DNA from: Sabellastarte sp. h YS-2021
Taxonomy: Eukaryota > Annelida > Polychaeta > Sabellida > Sabellidae
Assembly: GCA_964017235.1 (NCBI GenBank)
Contig: OZ024929.1
Location: forward strand, 163,851,609-163,915,608
DNA: 64,000 nt
Reading direction: 5' to 3'
The translations under genes were made by a program, and so were the position numbers. The notes under the pieces were generated by a model that did no database searches, was not told the origin of the DNA, and saw only the letters and a list, made by a program, of their open reading frames with translations. The stretch's first letter is position 1. Each line of letters starts with the position of its first letter. Below, in pieces: positions 279-63,365 of this stretch.

Positions 279-1260
279 CACAAAAATGCTTATATCTCGA
301 AAACCGTGCTAGATAGAGCGATTTCGACGAAATTTTTGACCCGCAGGGTATCTCTGCGGAGTAGTTTTCCCAATTTTCAAAAAATTTTTGTCTCGTCCAA
401 AATGGCGGCCATTTTGAATTTTCGAAATTTTCGCAAAAATTGCAAAACACAAAAATGCTTATATCTCAAAAACCGTGCTAGATAGAGCAATTTCGACAAA
501 ATTTTTGACCCGCAGGGTATCTCTGCGGAGTACTTTTCCCAATTTTCAAAAAATTTTTGTCTCGCCAAAAATGGCGGCCATTTTGAATTTTCGAAATTTT
601 CGTAAAAATTGCAAAACACAAAAATGCTTATATCTCGAAAACCGTGCTAGATAGAGCGATTTCGATGAAATTTTTGACCCACAGGGTATCTCTGCGGAGT
701 AGTTTTCCCAATTTTCAAAAAATTTTTGTCTCGTCCAAAATGGCGGCCATTTTGAATTTTCGAAATTTTCGCAAAAATTGCAAAACACAAAAATGCTTAT
801 ATCTCAAAAACCGTGCTAGATAGAGCAATTTCGACAAAATTTTTGACCCACAGGGTATCTCTGCAGAGTACTTTTCCCAATTTTCAAAAAATTTTTGTCT
901 CGCCAAAAATGGCGGCCATTTTGAATTTTCGAAATTTTCGTAAAAATTGCAAAACACAAAAATGCTTATATCTCGAAAACCGTGCTAGATAGAGCGATTT
1001 CGACGAAATTTTTGACCCACAGGGTATCTCTGCAGAGTAGTTATCCCAATTTTGAAAAAATTTTTGTCTCGCCAAAAATGGCGGCCATTTTGAATTTTCG
1101 AATTTTTCGCAAAAATTGCAAAACATAAAAATGCTTATATCTCGAAAACCCTGCAAGATAGAGCGATTTCGACGAAATTTTTGATCCACAGGGTATATCT
1201 GCAGAGTAGCCATGCCAATTTTCAAAAAAATTTTGTCTTGCCAAAAATGGCGGCCATTTT
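279..1260. repeat. Satellite A: ~6 tandem 169-bp units (338-bp dimers)
   Basis: The phrase AAAATGCTTATATCTC recurs about every 169 bp (near 284, 453, 622, 791, 960 and 1129). Each unit also carries a GGTATCTCTGC word and ends near ATGGCGGCCATTTT. Units alternate between two types. Units 1 and 3 have CTCGAAAACC and GTCCAAAATGG, whereas units 2 and 4 have CTCAAAAACC and GCCAAAAATGG, so the real period of the first four units is about 338 bp. Unit 5 mixes the two types and unit 6 is more diverged. Several short minus-strand open frames here are translations of the repeat and not genes. The array stops abruptly at the start of satellite B. Confidence 0.93.
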
Positions 1261-4200
1261 ACTCACCTACTCAAAATGAGTAAATGCGAATTATCTCTAA
1301 AAGTATTGCAGACAGCCAATTTTTCTCAAATAACTCATTCACCTACTTTTGGGAGAGCTTTCACTTGGTGAAGTTTCAGACCCATAGCTAATTACTCACC
1401 TACTCAAAATGAGTAAATGCGAATTATCTCTAAAAGTATTGCAGATAGCCAATTTTTGTCAAATTAATCATTCGCCTACTTTTGGGAGAGCTTTCACTTG
1501 GTGAAGTTTCAGACCCATAGCTAATTACTCACCTACTCAAAATGAGTAAATGCGAATTATCTCTAAAAGTATTGCAGATAGCCAATTTTTCTCAAATAAC
1601 TCATTCACCTACTTTTGGGAGAGCTTTCACTCTGTGAAGTTTCAGACCCATAGCTAATTACTCACCTACTGAAAATGAGTAAATGCGAATTATCTCTAAA
1701 AGTATTGCAGATAGCCAATTTTTCTCAAATAACTCATTCACCTACTTTTGGGAGAGCTTTCACATGGTGAAGTTTCAGACCCATAGCTAATTATTTACCT
1801 ACTCAAAATGAGTAAATGCTAATTATCTGTAAAAGTATTGCGGATACCCAATTTTTATCAAATAACTCATTCATCTACTTGTGGGAGAGCTTTCACATGG
1901 TGAAGTTTCAGACCCATAGCTAATTACTCACCTACTCAAAATGAGTAAATGCGAATTATCTCTAAAAATATTGCAGATAGCCAATTTTTCTCAAATAAAT
2001 GATTCACCTACTTTTGGGAGAGCTTTCACTTGGTGAAGTTTCAGACCCATAGCTAATTACTCACCTACTCAAAATGAGTAAATGCGAATTATCTCTAAAA
2101 GTATTGTAGATAGCCAATTTTTCTCAAATTAATCATTCACCTACTTTTGGGAGAGCTTTCACTTGGTGAAGTTTCAGACCCATAGCTAATTACTCACCTA
2201 CTCAAAATGAGTAAATGCGAATTACCTCTAAAAGTATTGCAGATAGCCAATTTTTCTCAAATAACTCATTCACCTACTTTTGGGAGAGCTTTCACTTGGT
2301 GAAGTTTCACACCCATAGCTAATTACTCACCTACTCAAAATGAGTAAATGCGAATTATCTCTAAAAGTATTGCAGATAGCCAATTTTTCTCAAATAACTC
2401 ATTCACCTACTTTTGGGAGAGCTTTCACTTGGTGAAGTTTCACACCCATAGCTAATTACTCACCTACTCAAAATGAGTAAATGCGAATTATCTCTAAAAG
2501 TATTGCAGATAGCCAATTTTTCTCAAATAACTCATTCACCTACTTTTGGGAGAGCTTTCACTTGGTGAAGTTTCACACCCATAGCTAATTACTCACCTAC
2601 TCAAAATGAGTAAATGCGAATTATCTCTAAAAGTATTGCAGATAGCCAATTTTTCTCAAATAACTCATTCACCTACTTTTGGGAGAGCTTTCACTTGGTG
2701 AAGTTTCACACCCATAGCTAATTACTCACCTACTCAAAATGAGTAAATCCGAATTATCTCTAAAAGTATTGCAGACAGCCAATTTTTCTCAAATAACTCA
2801 TTCACCTACTTTTGGGAGAGCTTTCACTTGGTGAAGTTTCAGACCCATAGCTAATTACTCACCTACTCAAAATGAGTAAATGCGAATTATCTCTAAAAGT
2901 ATTGCAGATAGCCAATTTTTGTCAAATTAATCATTCGCCTACTTTTGGGAGAGCTTTCACTTGGTGAAGTTTCAGACCCATAGCTAATTACTCACCTACT
3001 CAAAATGAGTAAATGCGAATTATCTCTAAAAGTATTGCAGATAGCCAATTTTTCTCAAATAACTCATTCACCTACTTTTGGGAGAGCTTTCACTCTGTGA
3101 AGTTTCAGACCCATAGCTAATTACTCACCTACTGAAAATGAGTAAATGCGAATTATCTCTAAAAGTATTGCAGATAGCCAATTTTTCTCAAATAACTCAT
3201 TCACCTACTTTTGGGAGAGCTTTCACATGGTGAAGTTTCAGACCCATAGCTAATTATTTACCTACTCAAAATGAGTAAATGCTAATTATCTGTAAAAGTA
3301 TTGCGGATACCCAATTTTTATCAAATAACTCATTCATCTACTTGTGGGAGAGCTTTCACATGGTGAAGTTTCAGACCCATAGCTAATTACTCACCTACTC
3401 AAAATGAGTAAATGCGAATTATCTCTAAAAATATTGCAGATAGCCAATTTTTCTCAAATAAATCATTCACCTACTTTTGGGAGAGCTTTCACTTGGTGAA
3501 GTTTCAGACCCATAGCTAATTACTCACCTACTCAAAATGAGTAAATGCGAATTATCTCTAAAAGTATTGTAGATAGCCAATTTTTCTCAAATTAATCATT
3601 CACCTACTTTTGGGAGAGCTTTCACTTGGTGAAGTTTCAGACCCATAGCTAATTACTCACCTACTCAAAATGAGTAAATGCGAATTATCTCTAAAAGTAT
3701 TGCAGATAGCCAATTTTTCTCAAATAACTCATTCACCTACTTTTGGGAGAGCTTTCACTTGGTGAAGTTTCACACCCATAGCTAATTACTCACCTACTCA
3801 AAATGAGTAAATGCGAATTATCTCTAAAAGTATTGCAGATAGCCAATTTTTCTCAAATAACTCATTCACCTACTTTTGGGAGAGCTTTCACTTGGTGAAG
3901 TTTCACACCCATAGCTAATTACTCACCTACTCAAAATGAGTAAATGCGAATTATCTCTAAAAGTATTGCAGATAGCCAATTTTTCTCAAATAACTCATTC
4001 ACCTACTTTTGGGAGAGCTTTCACTTGGTGAAGTTTCACACCCATAGCTAATTACTCACCTACTCAAAATGAGTAAATGCGAATTATCTCTAAAAGTATT
4101 GCAGATAGCCAATTTTTCTCAAATAACTCATTCACCTACTTTTGGGAGAGCTTTCACTTGGTGAAGTTTCACACCCATAGCTAATTACTCACCTACTCAA

Positions 4201-4958
4201 AATGAGTAAATGAGAATTATCTCTAAAAGTATTGCAGATAGCCAATTTTTCTCAAATAACTCATTCACCTACTTTTGGGAGAGCTTTCACTTGGTGAAGT
4301 TTCACACCCATAGCTAATTACTCACCTACTCAAAATGAGTAAATGCGAATTATCTCTAAAAGTATTGCAGATAGCCAATTTTTCTCAAATAACTCATTCA
4401 CCTACTTTTGGGAGAGCTTTCACTCGGTGAAGTTTCAGACCCATAGCTAATTACTCACCTACTCAAAATGAGTAAATGCGAATTATCTCTAAAAGTATTG
4501 CAGATAGCCAATTTTTCTCAAATAACTCATTCACCTACTTTTGGGAGAGCTTTCACTCTGTGAAGTTTCAGACCCATAGCTATTTATTCACCTACTCAAA
4601 ATGAGTAAATGCTAATTATCTGTAAAAGTATTGTGGATACCCAATTTTTATCAAATACTCATTCATCTACTTGTGGGAGAGCTTTCACATGGTGAAGTTT
4701 CAGACCCATAGCTAATTACTCACCTACTCAAAATGAGTAAATGCGAATTATCTCTAAAAGTATTGCGGATAGCCAATTTTTCTCAAATAACTCATTCACC
4801 TACTTTTGGGAGAGCTTTCACTTGGTGAAGTTTCAGACCCATAGATAATTATTCACCTACTCAAAATGAGTAAATGTGAATTATCTCTTAATAGTATTGC
4901 AGATAGCCAATTTTTCTCAAATAACTCATTCACCTACTTTTGGAAGAGCTTTCACACA
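1261..4958. repeat. Satellite B: 133-bp monomers in an 11-mer higher-order repeat
   Basis: About 28 head-to-tail copies of a 133-bp monomer, each beginning ACTCACCTACTCAAAATGAG; the first starts are 1261, 1394 and 1527. Monomer-specific variants recur exactly 1463 bp apart, which is 11 x 133. Examples are GACAGCC at 1311 and 2774; TCTGTG at 1631, 3094 and 4557; and TTATTTACCT at 1791 and 3254. The array is therefore two full 11-monomer blocks (1261-2723, 2724-4186) and a third partial block to about 4958, which has lost one monomer after 4557. The blocks are nearly identical to each other while monomers within a block differ more, so block duplication is recent. Each monomer contains the small inverted repeat TACTCA-AAA-TGAGTA. 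Confidence 0.95.
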
Positions 4959-5193
4959 CGAAAATGAAAAATTGTGAATATCTCGGAAAAGCTATTTCTT
5001 CTGCTTTAATGCTCGGCGGGAGATACACACCGCGGCAGTGGTCTTGACAAAAATTTTTGTCTCCCCAAAAATGGTGGCCATTTTGAATTTTCAAAGTTTT
5101 TGCAAAACACAAAAATGCTTATATCTCGAAAACCGTGCTATATGGAGCGAAATCAACAAAATTTTGGACCTGCTGGGTATCTCTGCAGAGTAG
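4959..5193. repeat. Degenerate satellite A copy, left half
   Basis: After the last B monomer and a short unrelated stretch (about 4960-5045), family A reappears with ATTTTTGTCTCC, ATGGTGGCCATTTTG, CAAAACACAAAAATGCTTATATC and GGTATCTCTGCAGAGTAG. The copy is diverged from the main array. It is interrupted at 5193 by a 133-bp insertion. A-type DNA on both sides of the B array suggests that B expanded inside an older A array. Confidence 0.8.
5181..5193. repeat. 13-bp direct repeat, left (target-site duplication)
   Basis: CTCTGCAGAGTAG is repeated exactly at 5327-5339 and brackets the 133-bp hammerhead insert. In uninterrupted satellite A units (for example near 1195) the equivalent sequence occurs once, so this is a target-site duplication. 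Confidence 0.8.
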
Positions 5194-5326
5194 GAAAAAA
5201 TCTGCTTCCTGCTTATGCGTAGACTGAGGGTGGATAATAAGATAGTTTATCTGCCTTATATAATTTAACTGTGTGTAAATTGTATTTCGACTGCTAATAT
5301 TTTGTCAGTCTCATCAGAGGCTTTTT
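5194..5326 (-). mobile_element. 133-bp hammerhead-bearing insertion
   Basis: The insert splits a satellite A copy and is flanked by perfect 13-bp direct repeats, as expected for a mobile sequence placed by target-primed or similar integration. Read on the minus strand it starts AAAAAGCCTCTGATGAG, contains a hammerhead ribozyme, and ends in a run of six T followed by C at the boundary. It has no open reading frame and no recognisable tRNA-type B box, so it is not a classic SINE. Hammerheads of this topology are known from Penelope-like elements and metazoan retrozymes. This could be a solo retrozyme-like unit or a short terminal piece of a Penelope-like element. No second copy was seen in the window. 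Confidence 0.72.
5253..5321 (-). ncRNA. Type I hammerhead ribozyme
   Basis: On the minus strand all conserved parts are present in order. Stem I 5' strand is GCCU (5321-5318) and the core CUGAUGA is 5317-5311. Stem II is GACUG/CAGUC (5310-5306 with 5293-5289), a perfect 5 bp closing a 12-nt loop. GAA is 5288-5286 and A15.1 is 5285. Stem III is UACAAUUUA/UAAAUUAUA (5284-5276 with 5267-5259), 9 positions with one C-A mismatch. The cleavage triplet is AUA (5259-5257), followed by AGGC (5256-5253) closing stem I. Predicted self-cleavage lies between 5257 and 5256. Strands enter and leave through stem I, which makes it type I. Every nucleotide of the catalytic core that I could check matches the consensus. 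Activity is inferred. Confidence 0.88.
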
Positions 5327-5460
5327 CTCTGCAGAGTAGCCATGCCAATTTTCAAAATATTTTTGTCTCACCAAATATAGCGGACATTTTTAATTTTTTT
5401 ATTTTTTGCAAAACACAAAAATGCTTATATCTTGAAAACCGTGCTAGATAGAGCAGACTG
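5327..5460. repeat. Satellite A copy, right half, with direct repeat
   Basis: It starts with the second copy of the 13-bp direct repeat (5327-5339) and continues the interrupted A unit: AGTAGCCATGCCAATTTTC, a diverged GGCGGCCAT box, then CAAAACACAAAAATGC and ACCGTGCTAGATAGAGC. Family A ends here. Confidence 0.8.
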
Positions 5461-13084: not shown

Positions 13085-13530
13085 ATCAAAGCCAGTGAAC
13101 CGTCGTTTGACCTTGAAGGAGGGGCCAAAGTTCAAATCTAACATCAGAAGATTCCTAGCCCAAGATTTCGTATGAGTTGGTTTCGCATTGTAAACCTCTA
13201 GGACCAATAATGAGCGATTTATAAGCACTTTTAACTTTGGTTATCCTCGTTTGACCTTGAAGGAGGGGCCCAAGGTCAAATCTGACCACATCAGAAGATT
13301 CCCAGCCCATGATTTCCTATATGTTGGTTTACCATCCCAAATCTCTAGAATCCGATAATAAGCAAGTTATAAGCACTTGTAAGTTTGGCTATCCTTGTTT
13401 GACCTTGGAGGAGGGGTCCAAGGTCAAATCTGACAACATCAGAAGATTCGCAACTCATGATTTCCTATAGGTTGGTTTCACATTGCAAACCTCTAGGACC
13501 AATAATAAGGGAGATATAGGCACTTTTATA
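13085..13530. repeat. Tandem repeat, ~148-bp unit, three copies (TGACCTTGA family)
   Basis: CGTTTGACCTTGAAGGAGG-type starts occur near 13103, 13250 and 13398. Each is followed by AAGGTCAAATCT, CATCAGAAGATTC, CATGATTTCCTATA and a CTCTAGGACC/GAATCCGATAATAA segment. A related array lies in the opposite orientation at 62935-63365, so this is a dispersed tandem family. Confidence 0.82.
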
Positions 13531-14055: not shown

Positions 14056-14319
14056 CATTCATGCGGTTGTGAAAGATATTTGTCTTATTTTAGAGGGATA
14101 TTCTGTATTGGCAATTGTAGACCACCACCCCCCAATAGGTTTACGACTGTGTCCTTGATTAGTTCAGACTGCAAAGCTATCTCTTATTAACATTCATAAA
14201 GCATCATTTCTATCTTTAGGTCTATCCTAGCAATCATATAATAAAATCAACCCATATATTGTGACTATTTTTCCCCCATTTGGGAGGTAGGTTTATGACT
14301 GACTGGTGGATAAGGAACA

Positions 14320-15275
14320 GCCATTTTGTACTCTCGTCTTGTAACCGAATTCATTGTTTTTGGTTCAAAAATACAGCATGAAAAACTCGACAAATCCTTT
14401 CCAGTTAATATTCTTGGCTATTTCCTCTCTCCTGTAGGAGTGGTCAGGAACCGTGGTGTATGGTTTGATAGTGATATTTCCTTTTTCGAGACATGTCAAA
14501 ATATCTGTAAGTCCTGTTTTGCTCAAATTAGGGATCTTAAGCATCTCAGAGGTTACCTGACACACCATGCTGCTCTTATGGCTGCGAATGCTTTGGTTGG
14601 GAGTCGACTTGACTACTGTAATTCCTTGTTTAGGAGTTTCTCAGTTCTTGATCTTTGTAAGCTGCAATATGTTCAAAATAGTCTGGCTAGAATTGTTACC
14701 AACACCACTAAGTATTCACACATCACTCCTGTTGGGAAGACTCTCCATTGGCTGCCTATTGAACACCGTTCCATACTCAAGACTGCCTTACTGGTGTACA
14801 AGTTCCTACATAGTGGTTATCCAAAATAGTTTTTGACCTTTTCTTAAAACCAGAAAAAGTGTTTCCAAAATAGTTTTGCACCTTTTCTTAAAACCAGACA
14901 AAGTGTCTTTAACACATGCAAAAGCCAAGCTGATGGTGTGTTCCATGAGGTCCCGACTTTGCCACTACAATATACAAGTCTTCTAAGCATTTTGGTCTCA
15001 GCTTTGCTTATGATGCTCCAAGGATTTCGAATGATTTGCCTGATGTTCAGCCACTTCTCTCCACTCATTCAGAAGGAAGCTCAAAACCTATCTTTTGCAC
15101 AACATATCAACCCTAACTTCTGCTTTTTCCTGTTTTCTTTCCGTGGCACTGACCCTTGCTATGCCTCAGCTTTATGATTATAGTTTGGTTTGGTTTCTGC
15201 TATTTTGTTTGGTGCTCCTAGAGTCTGTCTTTGGATGGAGATTAGGTGCTATAAAAATACTATTAGAATTATGAA
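14320..15275 (+). mobile_element. CR1-like LINE, 5'-truncated 3' end
   Basis: An open frame at about 14326-14829 encodes the thumb/C-terminal part of a non-LTR reverse transcriptase of the CR1/jockey-like type: VRNRGVWFDSDISF, GSRLDYCNSLFRS, LQYVQNSLARIVTNT, HITPVGKTLHWLPIEHRS and LLVYKFLHSGYPK. The frame breaks just after YPK, where a ~45-bp stretch is duplicated (14831-14914). More C-terminal coding follows in another frame (FHEVPTLPLQYTS and beyond). The 3' tail near 15240-15275 (GGTGCTATAAAAATACTATT) is typical of CR1/L2 ends. No endonuclease or catalytic FADD motif is present. It is a dead copy. Confidence 0.88.
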
Positions 15276-28366: not shown

Positions 28367-28589
28367 CCACGATGACTGGTAGCAGTTTGTAAATATACAG
28401 ACATTTTCATTTATTTCTCAGTATTCACGTATTGTTGGAGGCTAATATTTGGATATTTCTTTAAATATATTTCATAGATTATACTGTAAAATTTTTAATT
28501 TCACAACTTAAGTATTTTCCTTACAATCCGCGTGTTTTGAGTTTTCTCGGTTCAGGCAATTTCAATTGTACGTCTTTTTATTGCGTTAA

Positions 28590-30781
28590 AATGTCTCTTC
28601 ATCAAGCAAACCAAACCAAACCGAGAGCTCAGAAATGCCGCCATTTTTGCTTCAGTTTTGATACTCATAATTACTGCCCTACCTGTAGGGAGGCTGGCAA
28701 GGGAGATGACCCCTGTGTCACTTTTGAAGCACCCTGCCATATTTGCACGTCTCTCACTGATGAACAATTGCAAAAAATTCAAAACAGGAAGCGGTACTTA
28801 AAAAAGCAAAAAGCGGAAACTAGTTCCAAAGATGAACTAGATCTCTTGGGTGAAGGCGATGGGGACTCTTTTACTGGTTCTAATGCAGACCTTGAGAGTG
28901 CTGCCGATAACCTCTTTACCTCACCCCCCCCCCCCCCGTCCTCAACCTCTCGCCTTCAGTTCTTTATCACTAAAGACCCCAGCCAAGGCTGTTCCTCCCA
29001 CCCCAGGTACTGTTTTACAAAACAAAATTCAAAGAAATCTAGAGAAATCCCTGGGTGATTCCTTAAATATACATATCCAGCAGCAAATGGGTTCCTTCCA
29101 GGCATCCATGTTAGAAGCATTTCAATCACTCCGAGAGGAGTTGGCAGTTAAAAAGTCTGCCGAGGTTGATCCCTCGCCTCATGCTTCAAAAGCTAGTCCA
29201 TCCAGCAACTCTGCTGCTCATCTGGAGCTCATCTCCCCCCCCCCCCCCCCCCCCCCCCCCCCCAGGTTAAGTACTAATGCACAGTCCGAGGCAATGGATG
29301 TGGACATTGGTCCAGCACTCCCTCCTCGACTAGTACTTAACCAAACTTCCTCGGATCAGTACGTTGCCCCTTCTGAAGCAATACCGAAGGATTCCTTGTA
29401 CTCACACAAAAAACAAAGCCACAGGCAAACAGTAGCACCGAGCTCTGCCTCGGATCATCTGGATGAGGATTCCGACAAACCTCGGATCCATCCTAGACCT
29501 AAGAAACACTCTGACAAGAGCAAGCATAAATCTAGGTCCAGATATGTGTCATCTTCAGAGGAAGATCACTCCCCTGTGGCCTGACACAGGTCTTCTAAGC
29601 CCTCTAGGGCTCAGCCCTCAGGCGCAGCTTCTGATCAAGACCTCCCACAACATGATCCAGACCCCCCTTATTATAGGGAAGTAGCCCTGTCTGACATTCC
29701 CTCCCAATACTCTGAAGAGGTAGACACCTTCAGGCGCATTCTTTCTCTCCCTGACCCCAGGGACTCTATGCCTAGGTCTTCAACTTCAGAGTTGGGTCTG
29801 GATGACGAAAAAAGCCGTCAAGAGCTCAGACCTAGAGGTCCTTTCTCTATCCTACCACTTAGCTCAGTTATCAAGGATGCCTTTGATAAATTTCAACATG
29901 ATTTCAAAGCTGCCAATTTATCTGAGGGAAAATATGTCAAGCCTCCTCCTTCCACTTCTAAGTGGTATAAGGTTGGACAGCCCACTTTTCAAGACAAAAT
30001 CCAGGAGTTGAATATGGACTTTGCCAAGATCTGTATTACTCCTAGACCTCCTGGGGCACCAGTAGCCAAAGTCCCTATGCCAGTCCTTAAGGAGCTGGAA
30101 CATCAGGCTAGACAAAATATCTCAACCCTCAATTTCACCGCTGCCTTTGCCAAAACCTCTTCTTCTTGCAATGCTTCCTTGGAGAAGTGCCAACATAGCA
30201 TCAAGTCAGCTGTCAAGAAGATAAAGTCTTAGATCCAGAAAGGTGCCAATCCTGAGAAAGCAGCAAAGCGCGGATATGAGGAAGTTGCTGAGTACTTGGA
30301 TTTTTGGAACAAGACGGTTCTTGTTCAACATAGAGCTCTTACCTGTCTCAGCAAATCGCTAGCCCATATTCTCCAGAGGGAATTATATTCCATGGCTAAT
30401 ACCGGCTTGCTTAGGCGCGAAGCTGAAATGACTCTATTGCATCCCCAGCTAGGGGAAACGAGACGCCAAGAACTTAGGAACTCGTCCTTCTGGGACTCCT
30501 CCTTGTTCGAGTCTCAACTTGTAAAGGAAGGTGAGGACTTCCTTCTCAAAAAAGGCACCTCAAAAGATTCTCAGGGTTTTTCACCCTACCAGAATAAGCC
30601 CTTTCGTGGCCCCCACAAGAAAAGAGGCTCCTACAGGAAACGCCCCTATGGGGGCAATACCTCTCAAAGCAGTAACCAATCCTTTCCCTCGGGAAGAGGA
30701 AAACCCAACTTCAGAGGCTCCAGGGGTCGTTTTCGACCCCACAATAGGGGAAGGGGGCGTGGAAACCCCCCTTCGCAATGA
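28590..30781 (+). other. DIRS gag-like region
   Basis: Near its start is a Cys/His cluster (CRHFCFSFDTHNYCPTCRE, then CHICTSL) that resembles the zinc-binding N-terminus of DIRS gag-like ORF1 products. Ser/Pro- and Lys-rich low-complexity sequence follows. The end is Arg/Gly-rich (GRGKPNFRGSRGRFRPHN), as in nucleic-acid-binding gag tails. The region is open only in pieces (about three breaks), so this copy should not make a full gag-like protein. Confidence 0.72.
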
Positions 30782-32837
30782 CTCCTCCAAAGCCTCATTC
30801 AGTCCACCAGTAGGAAGTCGCCTCCGTTCTTTCAAGAGAGACTGGCTAACAAACAAATGTTCTCAAAACGTGTTAAACATTATCACCAATGGCTACGTTC
30901 TGCCATTCCGTTCAAAGCCAAACTTGATCAGATTTCCTCTGATTCTATCAGAGTACAAGGCCCAACAAAAAGACCAAGCCTTGGCCACTTGTATCCAGTC
31001 TCTCTTGTCAAAGAACGCCATCGAAAGGGTGGAAAACGTAAAATCTCTCGGGTTTTACAGTCGCCTGTTCCTAGTACCCAAGCCTCACCAAAGGTGGAGG
31101 CCAGTCATAGACCTAAGCAGGCTCAACACTTTTCTACATGTAGAAAAGTTCAAAATGGAAACCCCGGAGTCCATCCGGACTTCCCTGGTCCCAGGGGAGT
31201 GGGTATCGTCGATAGACCTGTCGGACGCATACCTTCACATCCCCATCCATCCAAACTCAAGGAAGTACCTAAGGTTTTGCTACAAGGCCCAGGTGTTCCA
31301 GTTCACCTCCCTACCTTTCGGACTGGCCACAGCCCCCCAGGTCTTTACGATGATCGTAAAGGAAGTGAAACTAATGGCCCTCTCAAGAGGACTCAGAATT
31401 CACCAATACCTGGACGACTGGCTGATCAGGTCCCAGTCCCAGGAGGAATCTCAAAGGGACACACAGGCAGTGGTAGACCTAACCCAATCCTTGGGTTGGA
31501 TAATCAACCAGGAAAAATCAGAACTGAAACCTACTCAGGTGTTTTCGTTCGTGGGCTACGAATACCACCTAGATTCAGCCCTTGTAAGACCCACTCACGA
31601 GAGATGGCTCAAACTTCAGGATTTGATCCTACGACTCAAGTCAAAACGTGTTTTGACTGCAAGATGTTTGATGTCTCTAATTGGGTTGCTAGCCTCAACG
31701 GAGAAAATGGTCCCGGAGGGACGCCTTCACATGAGGCCCTTTCAGTTTCATCTCAAGGAGCACTGGAGATATCCTCAGTCGCTGGACAACCTCCTTCCTT
31801 GGACAGAAGCCATTGTAGCCCACCTAGATTGGTGGCAAAACCCCTCAAATGTGATGAAAGGCGCAGACCTTCATCCCAAGGACCACAGTATCCAACTCGT
31901 TACCGACGCCTCAAACGAAGGTTGGGGCGCTCACTTAGATCAAAATTCTACAAGAGGGCTGTGGTCAGAGCGGGAAAAAAGGCTACACATAAATGTCCTG
32001 GAATTGAAGGCGGTCTCCCTGGCCCTTCGAGACTTCAAGGACCAGTGCCAGAATCAAACAGTGTTAGTTGCGACGGACAACTCAACAGTGGTAGCCTACA
32101 TCAACAAGCAAGGGGGAACTCGCTCAGCAGAGATGTGCGCTCTCCTGTGGAAAATCATGACCTGGTGCCATCACTACCATATAACATTGAAAGCCAGGCA
32201 CATTCCAGGGTGTCTGAATGTGATGGCCGACCTCCTATCCAGGTCCAACCAAGTGCAGTCAACAGAATGGTCCCTGCACCCTCAGGTCTTCAAACAAATC
32301 TGCCGAAAGTGGTTCACCCCTCATGTAGACTTATTCGCCACTCACCTGAATCACAAACTCCCTCTATATGTGTCTCCTATCCCAGACCCAAGGGCCTGGA
32401 ACATAGATGCTCTGAACATAAACTGGACCAACCTCACGGCCTACGCCTACCCTCCTACGGCTCTCCTTCACAAGGTGATCCAAAAGATCAAGCAATGCCA
32501 TTGCCTGATCATCGTGATAGCCCCAGGCTGGCCAGGGATGCCCTGGTTTTGGGACCTAGTGCAGCTCTCAACAGAGATCCCACTACAACTCCCAGTGTCA
32601 ACGACCCTACTCAAACAGTCCCACAACTATGTGTTCCACAACAATCCACAACAGCTGAACCTCCACGCCTGGTGTCTAGGAGCGGACAACTCCAAGAACA
32701 AGGCTTCTCTGTGGAGGTGGCAGAGAGAATTGCTGCCCCTCAGCGGTCATCAACAAGGACCATCTACAGGTCAAAGTGGGCCCTATTTGAAAAATGGTGC
32801 AGAGAAAATTCGGTGGATTTCTCCACTCCATCTGTGA
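30531..32837 (+). CDS. DIRS reverse transcriptase - RNase H - methyltransferase-like frame
   Basis: A 768-codon open frame. Residues ~165-345 are reverse transcriptase: WRPVIDLSRLN at ~189, SIDLSDAYLHIPI at ~227, LPFGLATAPQVF at ~261, and the catalytic YLDDW at 293-297. Residues ~455-570 are RNase H: LVTDASNEGWGAH, NVLELKAVSLAL, VATDNSTVVAY and LNVMADLLSR. Residues ~595-725 fit the Dam-like methyltransferase domain known in DIRS elements (VDLFATHLNHKLPLYVSP, IVIAPGWPGMPWFWDL). It copies the element's RNA into DNA in the family's life cycle. The first ~80 codons overlap the end of the gag-like region in another frame. The frame looks whole. Confidence 0.93.
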   Translation: MRTSFSKKAPQKILRVFHPTRISPFVAPTRKEAPTGNAPMGAIPLKAVTNPFPREEENPTSEAPGVVFDPTIGEGGVETPLRNDSSKASFSPPVGSRLRSFKRDWLTNKCSQNVLNIITNGYVLPFRSKPNLIRFPLILSEYKAQQKDQALATCIQSLLSKNAIERVENVKSLGFYSRLFLVPKPHQRWRPVIDLSRLNTFLHVEKFKMETPESIRTSLVPGEWVSSIDLSDAYLHIPIHPNSRKYLRFCYKAQVFQFTSLPFGLATAPQVFTMIVKEVKLMALSRGLRIHQYLDDWLIRSQSQEESQRDTQAVVDLTQSLGWIINQEKSELKPTQVFSFVGYEYHLDSALVRPTHERWLKLQDLILRLKSKRVLTARCLMSLIGLLASTEKMVPEGRLHMRPFQFHLKEHWRYPQSLDNLLPWTEAIVAHLDWWQNPSNVMKGADLHPKDHSIQLVTDASNEGWGAHLDQNSTRGLWSEREKRLHINVLELKAVSLALRDFKDQCQNQTVLVATDNSTVVAYINKQGGTRSAEMCALLWKIMTWCHHYHITLKARHIPGCLNVMADLLSRSNQVQSTEWSLHPQVFKQICRKWFTPHVDLFATHLNHKLPLYVSPIPDPRAWNIDALNINWTNLTAYAYPPTALLHKVIQKIKQCHCLIIVIAPGWPGMPWFWDLVQLSTEIPLQLPVSTTLLKQSHNYVFHNNPQQLNLHAWCLGADNSKNKASLWRWQRELLPLSGHQQGPSTGQSGPYLKNGAEKIRWISPLHL

Positions 32838-33904
32838 AACAAATCTCAGATTTTTTCATGTACCTGTACCAAGACCTAAACAGGCGCCCCTCGACCATTG
32901 ATGGTTACAGAACTGCTATCGTTGACACTTTGGGCCCAACGGCCCAACACATTGCGCACAATGCAGACCTTCATAGGTTACTCTCCAGTTTCCACAGGGA
33001 TCGTCCTAAAAGTTCCAGAAATTTACCCAAGTGGAACCTTTCTGTTGTCCTTAACGAGCTCACCAAAGCACCATTTGAGCCCATGAAAGACTCAGACCTC
33101 AAACATCTTACTCTCAAAATTGCTTTCTTGCTAGCCTTTGCCTCCAGCAAGCACCGCAGCGAAATCCATGCCTGGGTCGCTAACAAAGTAGCTAATTTAG
33201 GCCAATGGGAAAAGGTAGCCTTGTTCCCTTCTTCTGATTTCATAGCCAAAAACCAACTAGCAAGAGAAGGTTCTCAAAGTGTGTCACCAGTGACTATTCC
33301 TGCTTTGACTACCATTGTAGATAGACAGTTTAAGGAAGACAGGACCCTGTGTCCCGTGCGGGCCCTGAGGTTCTATTTGGACCGAACTAAAGACCTGAGA
33401 GGGTCTCGTTCTCTCCTTTTCATCTCCTTTAAGAAAGGACATACCTCAGACATCAGACCCGCTACACTCTCCTCATGGTTGAAACAAACCATTCTACTTT
33501 GTTATAAACAAGCAGATCAACAAGCCTTGGACTTGGTCCAAGTCAAAGCGCATGACATCCGGGCCTTCGCGGCCTCTAAGGCCTTTTACGGTGGAGTATC
33601 GGTGGACCAAATCATGCAAGCCTGTCACTGGACAGCTCACAACACATTCACAAATTTTTACCTAAAAGACCTTACTTGGTCGGACACCGACAACAATATG
33701 TATCTGGGACCCGTAGTGGCGGCACAACAAGTCCTAGATCCTTCCCCTCAGACCAGTTGTCCTCGGAAAGAAAAAAGGGGGGGGGGGGGGGGGGGGGCAC
33801 ATCCGCTACAACCAAGTCTTCAGGAGTCTCTCCCAGGATCTAGGTATTCCTTTACCTTCAAGATGTTACGGGTAAGGTCATTTTATTTTTCAATTATCAG
33901 GTAA
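32660..33904 (+). CDS. DIRS tyrosine recombinase frame
   Basis: A tyrosine recombinase (phage-integrase fold) domain lies between ~32700 and ~33690. The N-terminal SAM-like core-binding part starts at STRTIYRSKWALFEKWC and runs through STIDGYRTAIVDTLG. The catalytic part has Arg in SSKHRSEIHA (~33150), His and Arg in KAHDIRAFAAS (~33551), and the nucleophile Tyr in FTNFYLKDL (~33659). It would integrate the circular DNA form, in place of a DDE integrase. This frame is open without interruption from ~30857, across most of the RT frame. Long overlaps between these two ORFs are known in DIRS elements. The domain looks whole. Confidence 0.92.
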   Translation, partial: PPRLVSRSGQLQEQGFSVEVAERIAAPQRSSTRTIYRSKWALFEKWCRENSVDFSTPSVKQISDFFMYLYQDLNRRPSTIDGYRTAIVDTLGPTAQHIAHNADLHRLLSSFHRDRPKSSRNLPKWNLSVVLNELTKAPFEPMKDSDLKHLTLKIAFLLAFASSKHRSEIHAWVANKVANLGQWEKVALFPSSDFIAKNQLAREGSQSVSPVTIPALTTIVDRQFKEDRTLCPVRALRFYLDRTKDLRGSRSLLFISFKKGHTSDIRPATLSSWLKQTILLCYKQADQQALDLVQVKAHDIRAFAASKAFYGGVSVDQIMQACHWTAHNTFTNFYLKDLTWSDTDNNMYLGPVVAAQQVLDPSPQTSCPRKEKRGGGGGGAHPLQPSLQESLPGSRYSFTFKMLRVRSFYFSIIR

Positions 33905-49140: not shown

Positions 49141-49177
<37 letters not shown>

Positions 49178-62640: not shown

Positions 62641-63365
62641 AAGTAAAAAATATTATACCTAGTCTTCTCAATTTTGCAGGATATAGTCATAACCATAAAA
62701 TCTTGCCTGGGAATATTTTTGGCCTCATTTTGAAAAACAAGATGGCCGCCAGGGACGTTTATTCGACTTAAAGCAAGGACTTTTGTTAGCCCTCTAGAGC
62801 AAAGGGTATTACAGGTAGAGATCTCAAATTCGCAGAATATGTTCCGTATTACAAAATCTTGACTGGAAATATTTTCGGCCTCATTTTGAAAAACAAGATG
62901 GCCGCCATGGGCATTTTTTTTGTCAGTCATGAAAAGTGCTTATATCTCCCTTATTATTGGTCCTAGAGGTTTGGGAATGAAAACCAACCTATAGGAAATC
63001 ATGGGCTGGGAATCTTTTGGTGTGGTCGGATTTGACCTTGGGCTCCTCCTTCAAGGTAAAACAAGGATAGCCAAACCTAAAAGTGCTCATAACTTGCTTA
63101 TTATTGGTCCTAGAGGTTTGCAATGTGAAACCAACTTATAGGAAATCATGGGCTGGGAGTCTTTTGATATTGTCAGATTTGACCTTGGACCCCTCCTTCA
63201 AGGTCAAACGAGGATAACTTAAAAGTGCTTATAACTCACTTATTATTGGTCCTAGAGGTATGGGATGGTAAACCAACATATAGGAAATTTATGGGCTAAG
63301 AATCTTTTAATGTGGTCAGATTTAACCTTGGACCCCTCCTTCAAGGTCAAACGAGGATAGCCAAT
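62640..63365. repeat. Tandem repeat arrays (AAGATGGCCGCCA and TGACCTTGA units)
   Basis: Two units carry GGCCTCATTTTGAAAAACAA followed by GATGGCCGCCA (near 62730 and 62880). Three to four units follow with TTATTATTGGTCCTAGAGGT, GGAAATCATGGGCTGGGA, GATTTGACCTTGGACCCCTC and CTTCAAGGTCAAACGAGG at ~140-bp spacing (62950, 63095, 63240). The second part is the inverse-orientation counterpart of 13085-13530. Confidence 0.82.

Follow-up and report, generated by a model that had tools for sequence, protein, structure and literature searches.

A putative retrozyme-like insert carrying a type I hammerhead motif within a satellite A unit

We describe a 133-bp insert that interrupts a satellite A unit between two identical 13-bp repeats, and whose minus strand carries a full type I hammerhead motif. 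We consider it reasonably probable that a small retroelement without coding sequence, resembling a retrozyme, left the insert as a solo copy, which may be 5'-truncated. In the mechanism that we propose, RNA of the insert would have been copied into the satellite A unit by a reverse transcriptase acting in trans, which may have come from a LINE or a Penelope-like element, and this insertion would have left the 13-bp target duplication. The ribozyme is predicted to cut the nascent minus-strand RNA after its AUA triplet, between positions 5257 and 5256. Throughout, positions are those of the window, by which we mean the whole 64-kb stretch of DNA that was analysed.

A non-coding insert in satellite A

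The insert, its presumed target duplication and the surrounding satellite sequence are placed as follows.

5049-5454, strand unspecified: satellite A sequence interrupted by the insert
5181-5193, strand unspecified: left copy of the target-site duplication, CTCTGCAGAGTAG; position 5180 matches too
5194-5326, minus strand: insert, 133 bp, GC 34%, no ORF; the minus strand reads AAAAA...TTTTTTC
5327-5339, strand unspecified: right copy of the target-site duplication, identical to the left copy, CTCTGCAGAGTAG

The first-pass annotation, made from the letters of the window, had proposed an insert at 5194-5326 that splits a satellite A unit between perfect 13-bp repeats, and its coordinates proved right. 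When the flanks are fused over one copy of the 13-mer, the resulting empty site can be aligned with six satellite A units, none of these alignments having a gap at the junction. The flanks themselves (5049-5454) match the array units at 275-1260 with ~80-85% identity over long matches. The T at 5180 equals the T at 5326, so that the direct repeat and the insert measure either 13 and 133 bp or 14 and 132 bp. The insert is a single unit with no internal repeat or tandem arrangement, and no second copy was found by blastn within the 64-kb window, where the remaining matches were short (best E 0.022).

The insert had also been called free of any ORF, which is borne out by a longest stop-free stretch of 37 codons. 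No tRNA was found in it. A/T runs occupy its ends on both sides, and poly(A) is terminal on neither strand. A further claim, that it lacks a tRNA-type promoter, stands for the minus strand, on which the search for A and B boxes recovered 8 of the 16 box letters and all 300 shuffles did equally well, but it does not hold in full for the plus strand, where 12 of the 16 letters make up a weak A/B-box-like pair that 15 of 300 shuffles equal.

The window as a whole has a GC content of 37%. Its satellite A array extends from 275 to 1260 with a period of 169 bp and 5.8 copies, and is directly followed by a satellite with a 133-bp period (1259-4955, 27.8 copies). A relationship between the insert and the latter satellite was rejected, as the two share only their length and blastn gave no match at E 10. 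Tandem repeats of ~147-148 bp occur at 13103-13525 and 62932-63364, with units that look mutually reverse-complementary, and there are pure poly-C runs of 29 bases at 29235-29263 and of 36 bases at 49142-49177. Overlapping long ORFs at 28465-33904, one of them with reverse transcriptase and RNase H domains (Pfam), suggest a DIRS-type retrotransposon by their order and by a tyrosine-recombinase-like end judged by eye. Another ORF, at 14314-14829, resembles the end of a LINE reverse transcriptase by eye and has no Pfam match. Finally, the UBA domain of the kinase MELK was weakly matched in the window (20.3 bits, where the curated cut-off is 27), and there is a kinase-like exon whose best E against solved structures was 0.0069. 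With these, the reverse transcriptase ORF and the satellite arrays, the window has the look of animal DNA.

The hammerhead motif and its rarity

Read 5' to 3' on the minus strand, the elements of the motif are arranged in the following order.

5318-5321, minus strand: 5' strand of stem I, GCCU
5311-5317, minus strand: core CUGAUGA
5306-5310, minus strand: 5' strand of stem II, GACUG
5294-5305, minus strand: loop II, 12 nt
5289-5293, minus strand: 3' strand of stem II, CAGUC
5286-5288, minus strand: core GAA, followed by A15.1
5276-5285, minus strand: 5' strand of stem III, A15.1 first
5268-5275, minus strand: loop III, 8 nt
5258-5267, minus strand: 3' strand of stem III, U16.1 last; 9 of 10 pairs
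5257, minus strand: H17, an A; predicted cleavage between 5257 and 5256
5253-5256, minus strand: 3' strand of stem I, AGGC
5194-5252, minus strand: tail 3' of the ribozyme, 59 nt; predicted competitor of stems I and II once transcribed

The core and helical features of a type I hammerhead are all present, namely CUGANGA, GAA, the A15.1-U16.1 pair and UH in the core, three flush helices and an open stem I. Pairing is complete in stem I (4 of 4 positions) and in stem II (5 of 5), while stem III, with A15.1-U16.1 counted, departs from it at one C x A position. The complete minus-strand hammerhead reported in the first-pass annotation is thus confirmed by the sequence, with an intact core, three formed stems and an AUA triplet, and self-cleavage is predicted from it. 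Loop I cannot be defined, because stem I consists of only 4 pairs ahead of A5 at the end of the insert.

A full type I descriptor matched the window at the insert alone, and descriptors for minimal and type III hammerheads matched nowhere in it. In random sequence generated by a first-order Markov process with the dinucleotide make-up of the window, a strict descriptor that allows G-U pairs found 8 motifs in 4.18 Gb with both strands searched (1.2e-4 per 64 kb), its Watson-Crick-only form found none in 4.18 Gb, and an earlier, looser version found 1 in 146 Mb (4.4e-4 per 64 kb). These chance figures, of 1e-4 to 4e-4 per 64 kb, are strong but not final, since the thresholds of the strict descriptor were chosen after the match had been seen and the scanning of many windows would turn up rare coincidences.

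The covariance-model check proposed in the first-pass annotation gave a mixed outcome. With Rfam, no significant score was obtained: at gathering score there was no match in the full window, a search with 321 bases yielded five weak matches with no hammerhead among them, and a 96-base stretch matched the RAGATH-1 hammerhead only (13.6 bits, E 3.7). However, this says little about the insert, because Rfam 15, run at gathering score on 20 control loci from IMG/VR, likewise listed no hammerhead and only 17 tRNA matches; 19 of these loci hold descriptor-positive motifs, L060 being the one that does not. The control indicates that type I hammerhead motifs can escape curated models applied at gathering score, and a negative Rfam search alone is poor ground for dismissing findings of this kind.

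With a custom covariance model, by contrast, the insert was recovered. The control collection was drawn from IMG/VR viral contigs by pattern scans that gave at least 120 and 29 stretches, selected on core and stem II only, and in the resulting 150 loci the descriptor recognised 134 distinct type I motifs among the matches listed. Type I hammerhead motifs are easily found in these contigs, and several with a shared stem I occur in L107, L094 and L067. The model was built from 43 of the motifs, with one misaligned row (L011) retained in the alignment. It picks the minus strand of the insert, which with default filters is the sole match in the window up to E 10 (18.0 bits, E 0.02) and with filters off the top one (20.5 bits, E 0.0042, against 13.9 bits and E 0.29 for the runner-up); these E-values are rough, and the training and control motifs are predicted ribozymes of viral contigs. 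On the 20 control loci the model marked 28 places in 19 of them with 20.8 to 58.9 bits, several of these places being training sequences, which means that they do not amount to an independent test. It missed L149, whose descriptor-positive motif has a loop III of 35 nt. Under default filters the insert ranks below all 28 control places, the lowest of which is the one at 20.8 bits.

Predicted folds of the two strands

The minimum-energy fold of the 73-nt ribozyme domain is the hammerhead, and its pairs, the C x A position aside, have predicted probabilities of 0.51-0.99. In stability the domain does not stand out, 106 of 1000 shuffles being equally good. In a transcript growing from the first base of the insert, the ribozyme helices are predicted to hold at lengths of 76 to ~100 nt and then to be lost to pairing with the tail. 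The predicted probability of stem I falls to 0.01-0.02 in the full 133-nt minus-strand RNA, and with the duplicated target placed upstream it is 0.00-0.19 at twelve transcript lengths. The ribozyme is therefore probably weak at this locus, with a stem I of 4 pairs and with both the duplicated target and the tail predicted to disrupt it. Two ideas that touch on this interference were rejected. We do not propose that the tail evolved as a lock on the ribozyme, as 294 of 1000 shuffled tails pair equally well, and neither a tandem nor a hypothetical circular RNA is predicted to restore the ribozyme, as the probability of stem I stays at 0.003 and 0.011 in the copies of a 2-mer and at 0.01 in a circle.

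The main point against reading the insert as a ribozyme is that its plus strand is predicted to fold better, for which we have no good explanation. The plus strand reaches -31.6 kcal/mol, with a z of -2.4 to -2.5 as opposed to -0.3 for the minus strand; 17 of 1000 shuffles do equally well for the whole plus strand and 10 of 1000 for its 73-nt part, against 339 of 1000 for the minus strand. Its predicted structure comprises four hairpins beneath a closing stem, its terminal T5 run resembles a Pol III terminator, and the lone mismatch of stem III on the minus strand becomes a G-U pair. Together with the weak A/B-box-like pair, these features would suit an insert that is read from the plus strand and was retrocopied from some unrelated small RNA with structure, or from a SINE-like unit, and on which the hammerhead is a coincidence. 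We regard this as unlikely, though it is the alternative that we take most seriously. It asks for a complete core among three flush helices to have arisen at the chance rates given above, and for the custom covariance model to have settled on the wrong strand. Moreover, no Rfam family fits the plus strand, no tRNA was found in the insert and the fold bias is modest.

Relation to retrozymes and Penelope-like elements

If the minus strand is the relevant one, metazoan non-LTR retrozymes offer the closest comparison. In the excerpted text of one account they combine a type I ribozyme with low GC and target duplications of more than 4 bp (PMC7229834), and a 15-bp target duplication is given for Nematostella repeats in an excerpt of another (PMC4918200). 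The insert is like these retrozymes, as far as that partial description goes, in its type I hammerhead, its non-coding sequence, its low GC (34%) and its duplication of 13-14 bp, and unlike them in being a single unit rather than a tandem one and in measuring 133 bp rather than ~170-400 nt (PMC7229834). In the same excerpts, a helix III of two pairs with a tetraloop is called similar to invertebrate motifs, as opposed to the 10 positions of helix III in the insert, and the ribozyme is said to stay free in most circles of metazoan retrozymes (PMC7229834), whereas that of the insert is predicted to be blocked. More generally, the excerpted retrozyme literature speaks of tandem units and of RNAs of ~170-400 nt in linear and circular form, and proposes that LINEs or Penelope-like elements mobilise such units (PMC7229834, PMC4918200, PMC3088659, PMC11167929, PMC7761336).

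The insert was not filed as a metazoan non-LTR retrozyme, for it has neither the tandem arrangement nor the size of 170-400 nt. Our comparison suggests that it is most likely either a variant that works like a retrozyme or a truncated copy of one. The idea of a minimal retrozyme-like element, put forward in the first-pass annotation, is supported in part, namely as regards the type I motif, the discrete non-coding insert and the target duplication. Among the matches listed in a search of the open-licence literature, we found no report of a 133-bp hammerhead element.

Other sets of sequences share the motif with the insert and little else. The type I hammerheads of the IMG/VR contigs have the same core, and in some of them, according to the descriptor, helix III has 8-12 pairs; they differ from the insert in a stem I of mostly 5-7 pairs and in a shorter loop II. 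Comparison with the 150 IMG/VR loci by blastn gave three short matches (E 0.45) and no likeness beyond the motif. Pattern scans for relatives of the insert returned nothing in one search of viral_contigs, a single locus (L001) in another, which was rejected by eye as a match without paired stems, and nothing in genome_contigs. By blastn, the insert hit six phage records at E 1 or worse, with at most 23% covered, and no plasmid. The hammerhead repeats of Schistosoma are likewise short animal repeats with a type I hammerhead, but the excerpted source notes a full tRNA sequence within them (PMC4918200), and none was found in the insert.

It would also be tempting to see in the insert a piece of a longer element, either truncated at the 5' end or a solo terminal fragment, be that element Penelope-like, a Terminon or a retrozyme of normal size, the last of which is a sub-case of the explanation that we prefer. 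Truncation at the 5' end is usual in target-primed copying, and the 5' end of the minus strand lies just 5 nt beyond stem I, as though the outer part of that stem had been lost. Because of this position, 5' truncation of a longer element would leave the same picture, and within the preferred explanation the 133 bp may represent a whole unit or such a truncated copy. Hammerheads of Penelope-like elements and Terminons were reportedly treated by Cervera and de la Pena in 2014. More stable variants have been reported from fungal and protist Penelope-like elements, and thus the argument from minimal variants that follows holds for the animal ones.

In the excerpted sources, type I hammerheads are ascribed to Penelope-like elements (PMC11167929, PMC7761336), and the insert would resemble them and Terminons in tying such a hammerhead to a retroelement. 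However, the hammerheads of Penelope-like elements and Terminons are described there as minimal variants without helix III or loop-loop contacts (PMC7761336), as opposed to the long, nearly complete helix III seen here. Because of this description the Penelope reading fits badly, and we disfavour the suggestion in the first-pass annotation that such an element might have left its solo terminal piece here. The minimal-hammerhead descriptor, as noted, had no match in the window, and Pfam searches with 10 of its 37 ORFs of at least 90 aa recognised no Penelope coding sequence. Taken over all the longer elements named, we hold the fragment explanation to be rather unlikely.

Within the retrozyme-like reading itself, it seems decidedly doubtful that the insert is a full, independently mobile ribozyme element of 133 bp, smaller than the reported animal retrozymes and endowed with a stable helix III. 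On the folding predictions, RNA of such an element starting at the first base would cleave only at ~76 to 100 nt, because the tail made later would lock the ribozyme, and this lock might then protect the finished RNA. A resemblance of the duplicated target to the ribozyme core was also considered as a guide to insertion and was dropped, as a rough hand estimate puts the chance expectation at about one such match.

It is highly improbable that the insert was never transposed and merely replaced a stretch between neighbouring satellite A units, with the repeats being the units' own motif: the 13-mer does belong to satellite A and is met again within the array, unit 1028 having the identical 13 letters, but the two flanking copies are identical while only 1 of the 15 pairs among units 352, 521, 690, 859, 1028 and 1197 (352 with 690) matches throughout the 13 bases. 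This speaks for a true target duplication as the simpler reading, and the replacement would require two exact breakpoints.

What the retrozyme-like insert means depends on its completeness. If 133 bp were the full unit, the lower size limit reported for animal retroelements with a ribozyme would drop, and the insert would provide a simple test case for whether such elements need the hammerhead in order to move. Here the excerpted report on a Penelope-like element, in which hammerhead cleavage was dispensable for insertion in vitro (PMC11167929), serves as a warning that a ribozyme inside an element need not drive its movement. If the insert is instead a truncated copy, it would be an ordinary trace of a retrozyme family in one more animal lineage.
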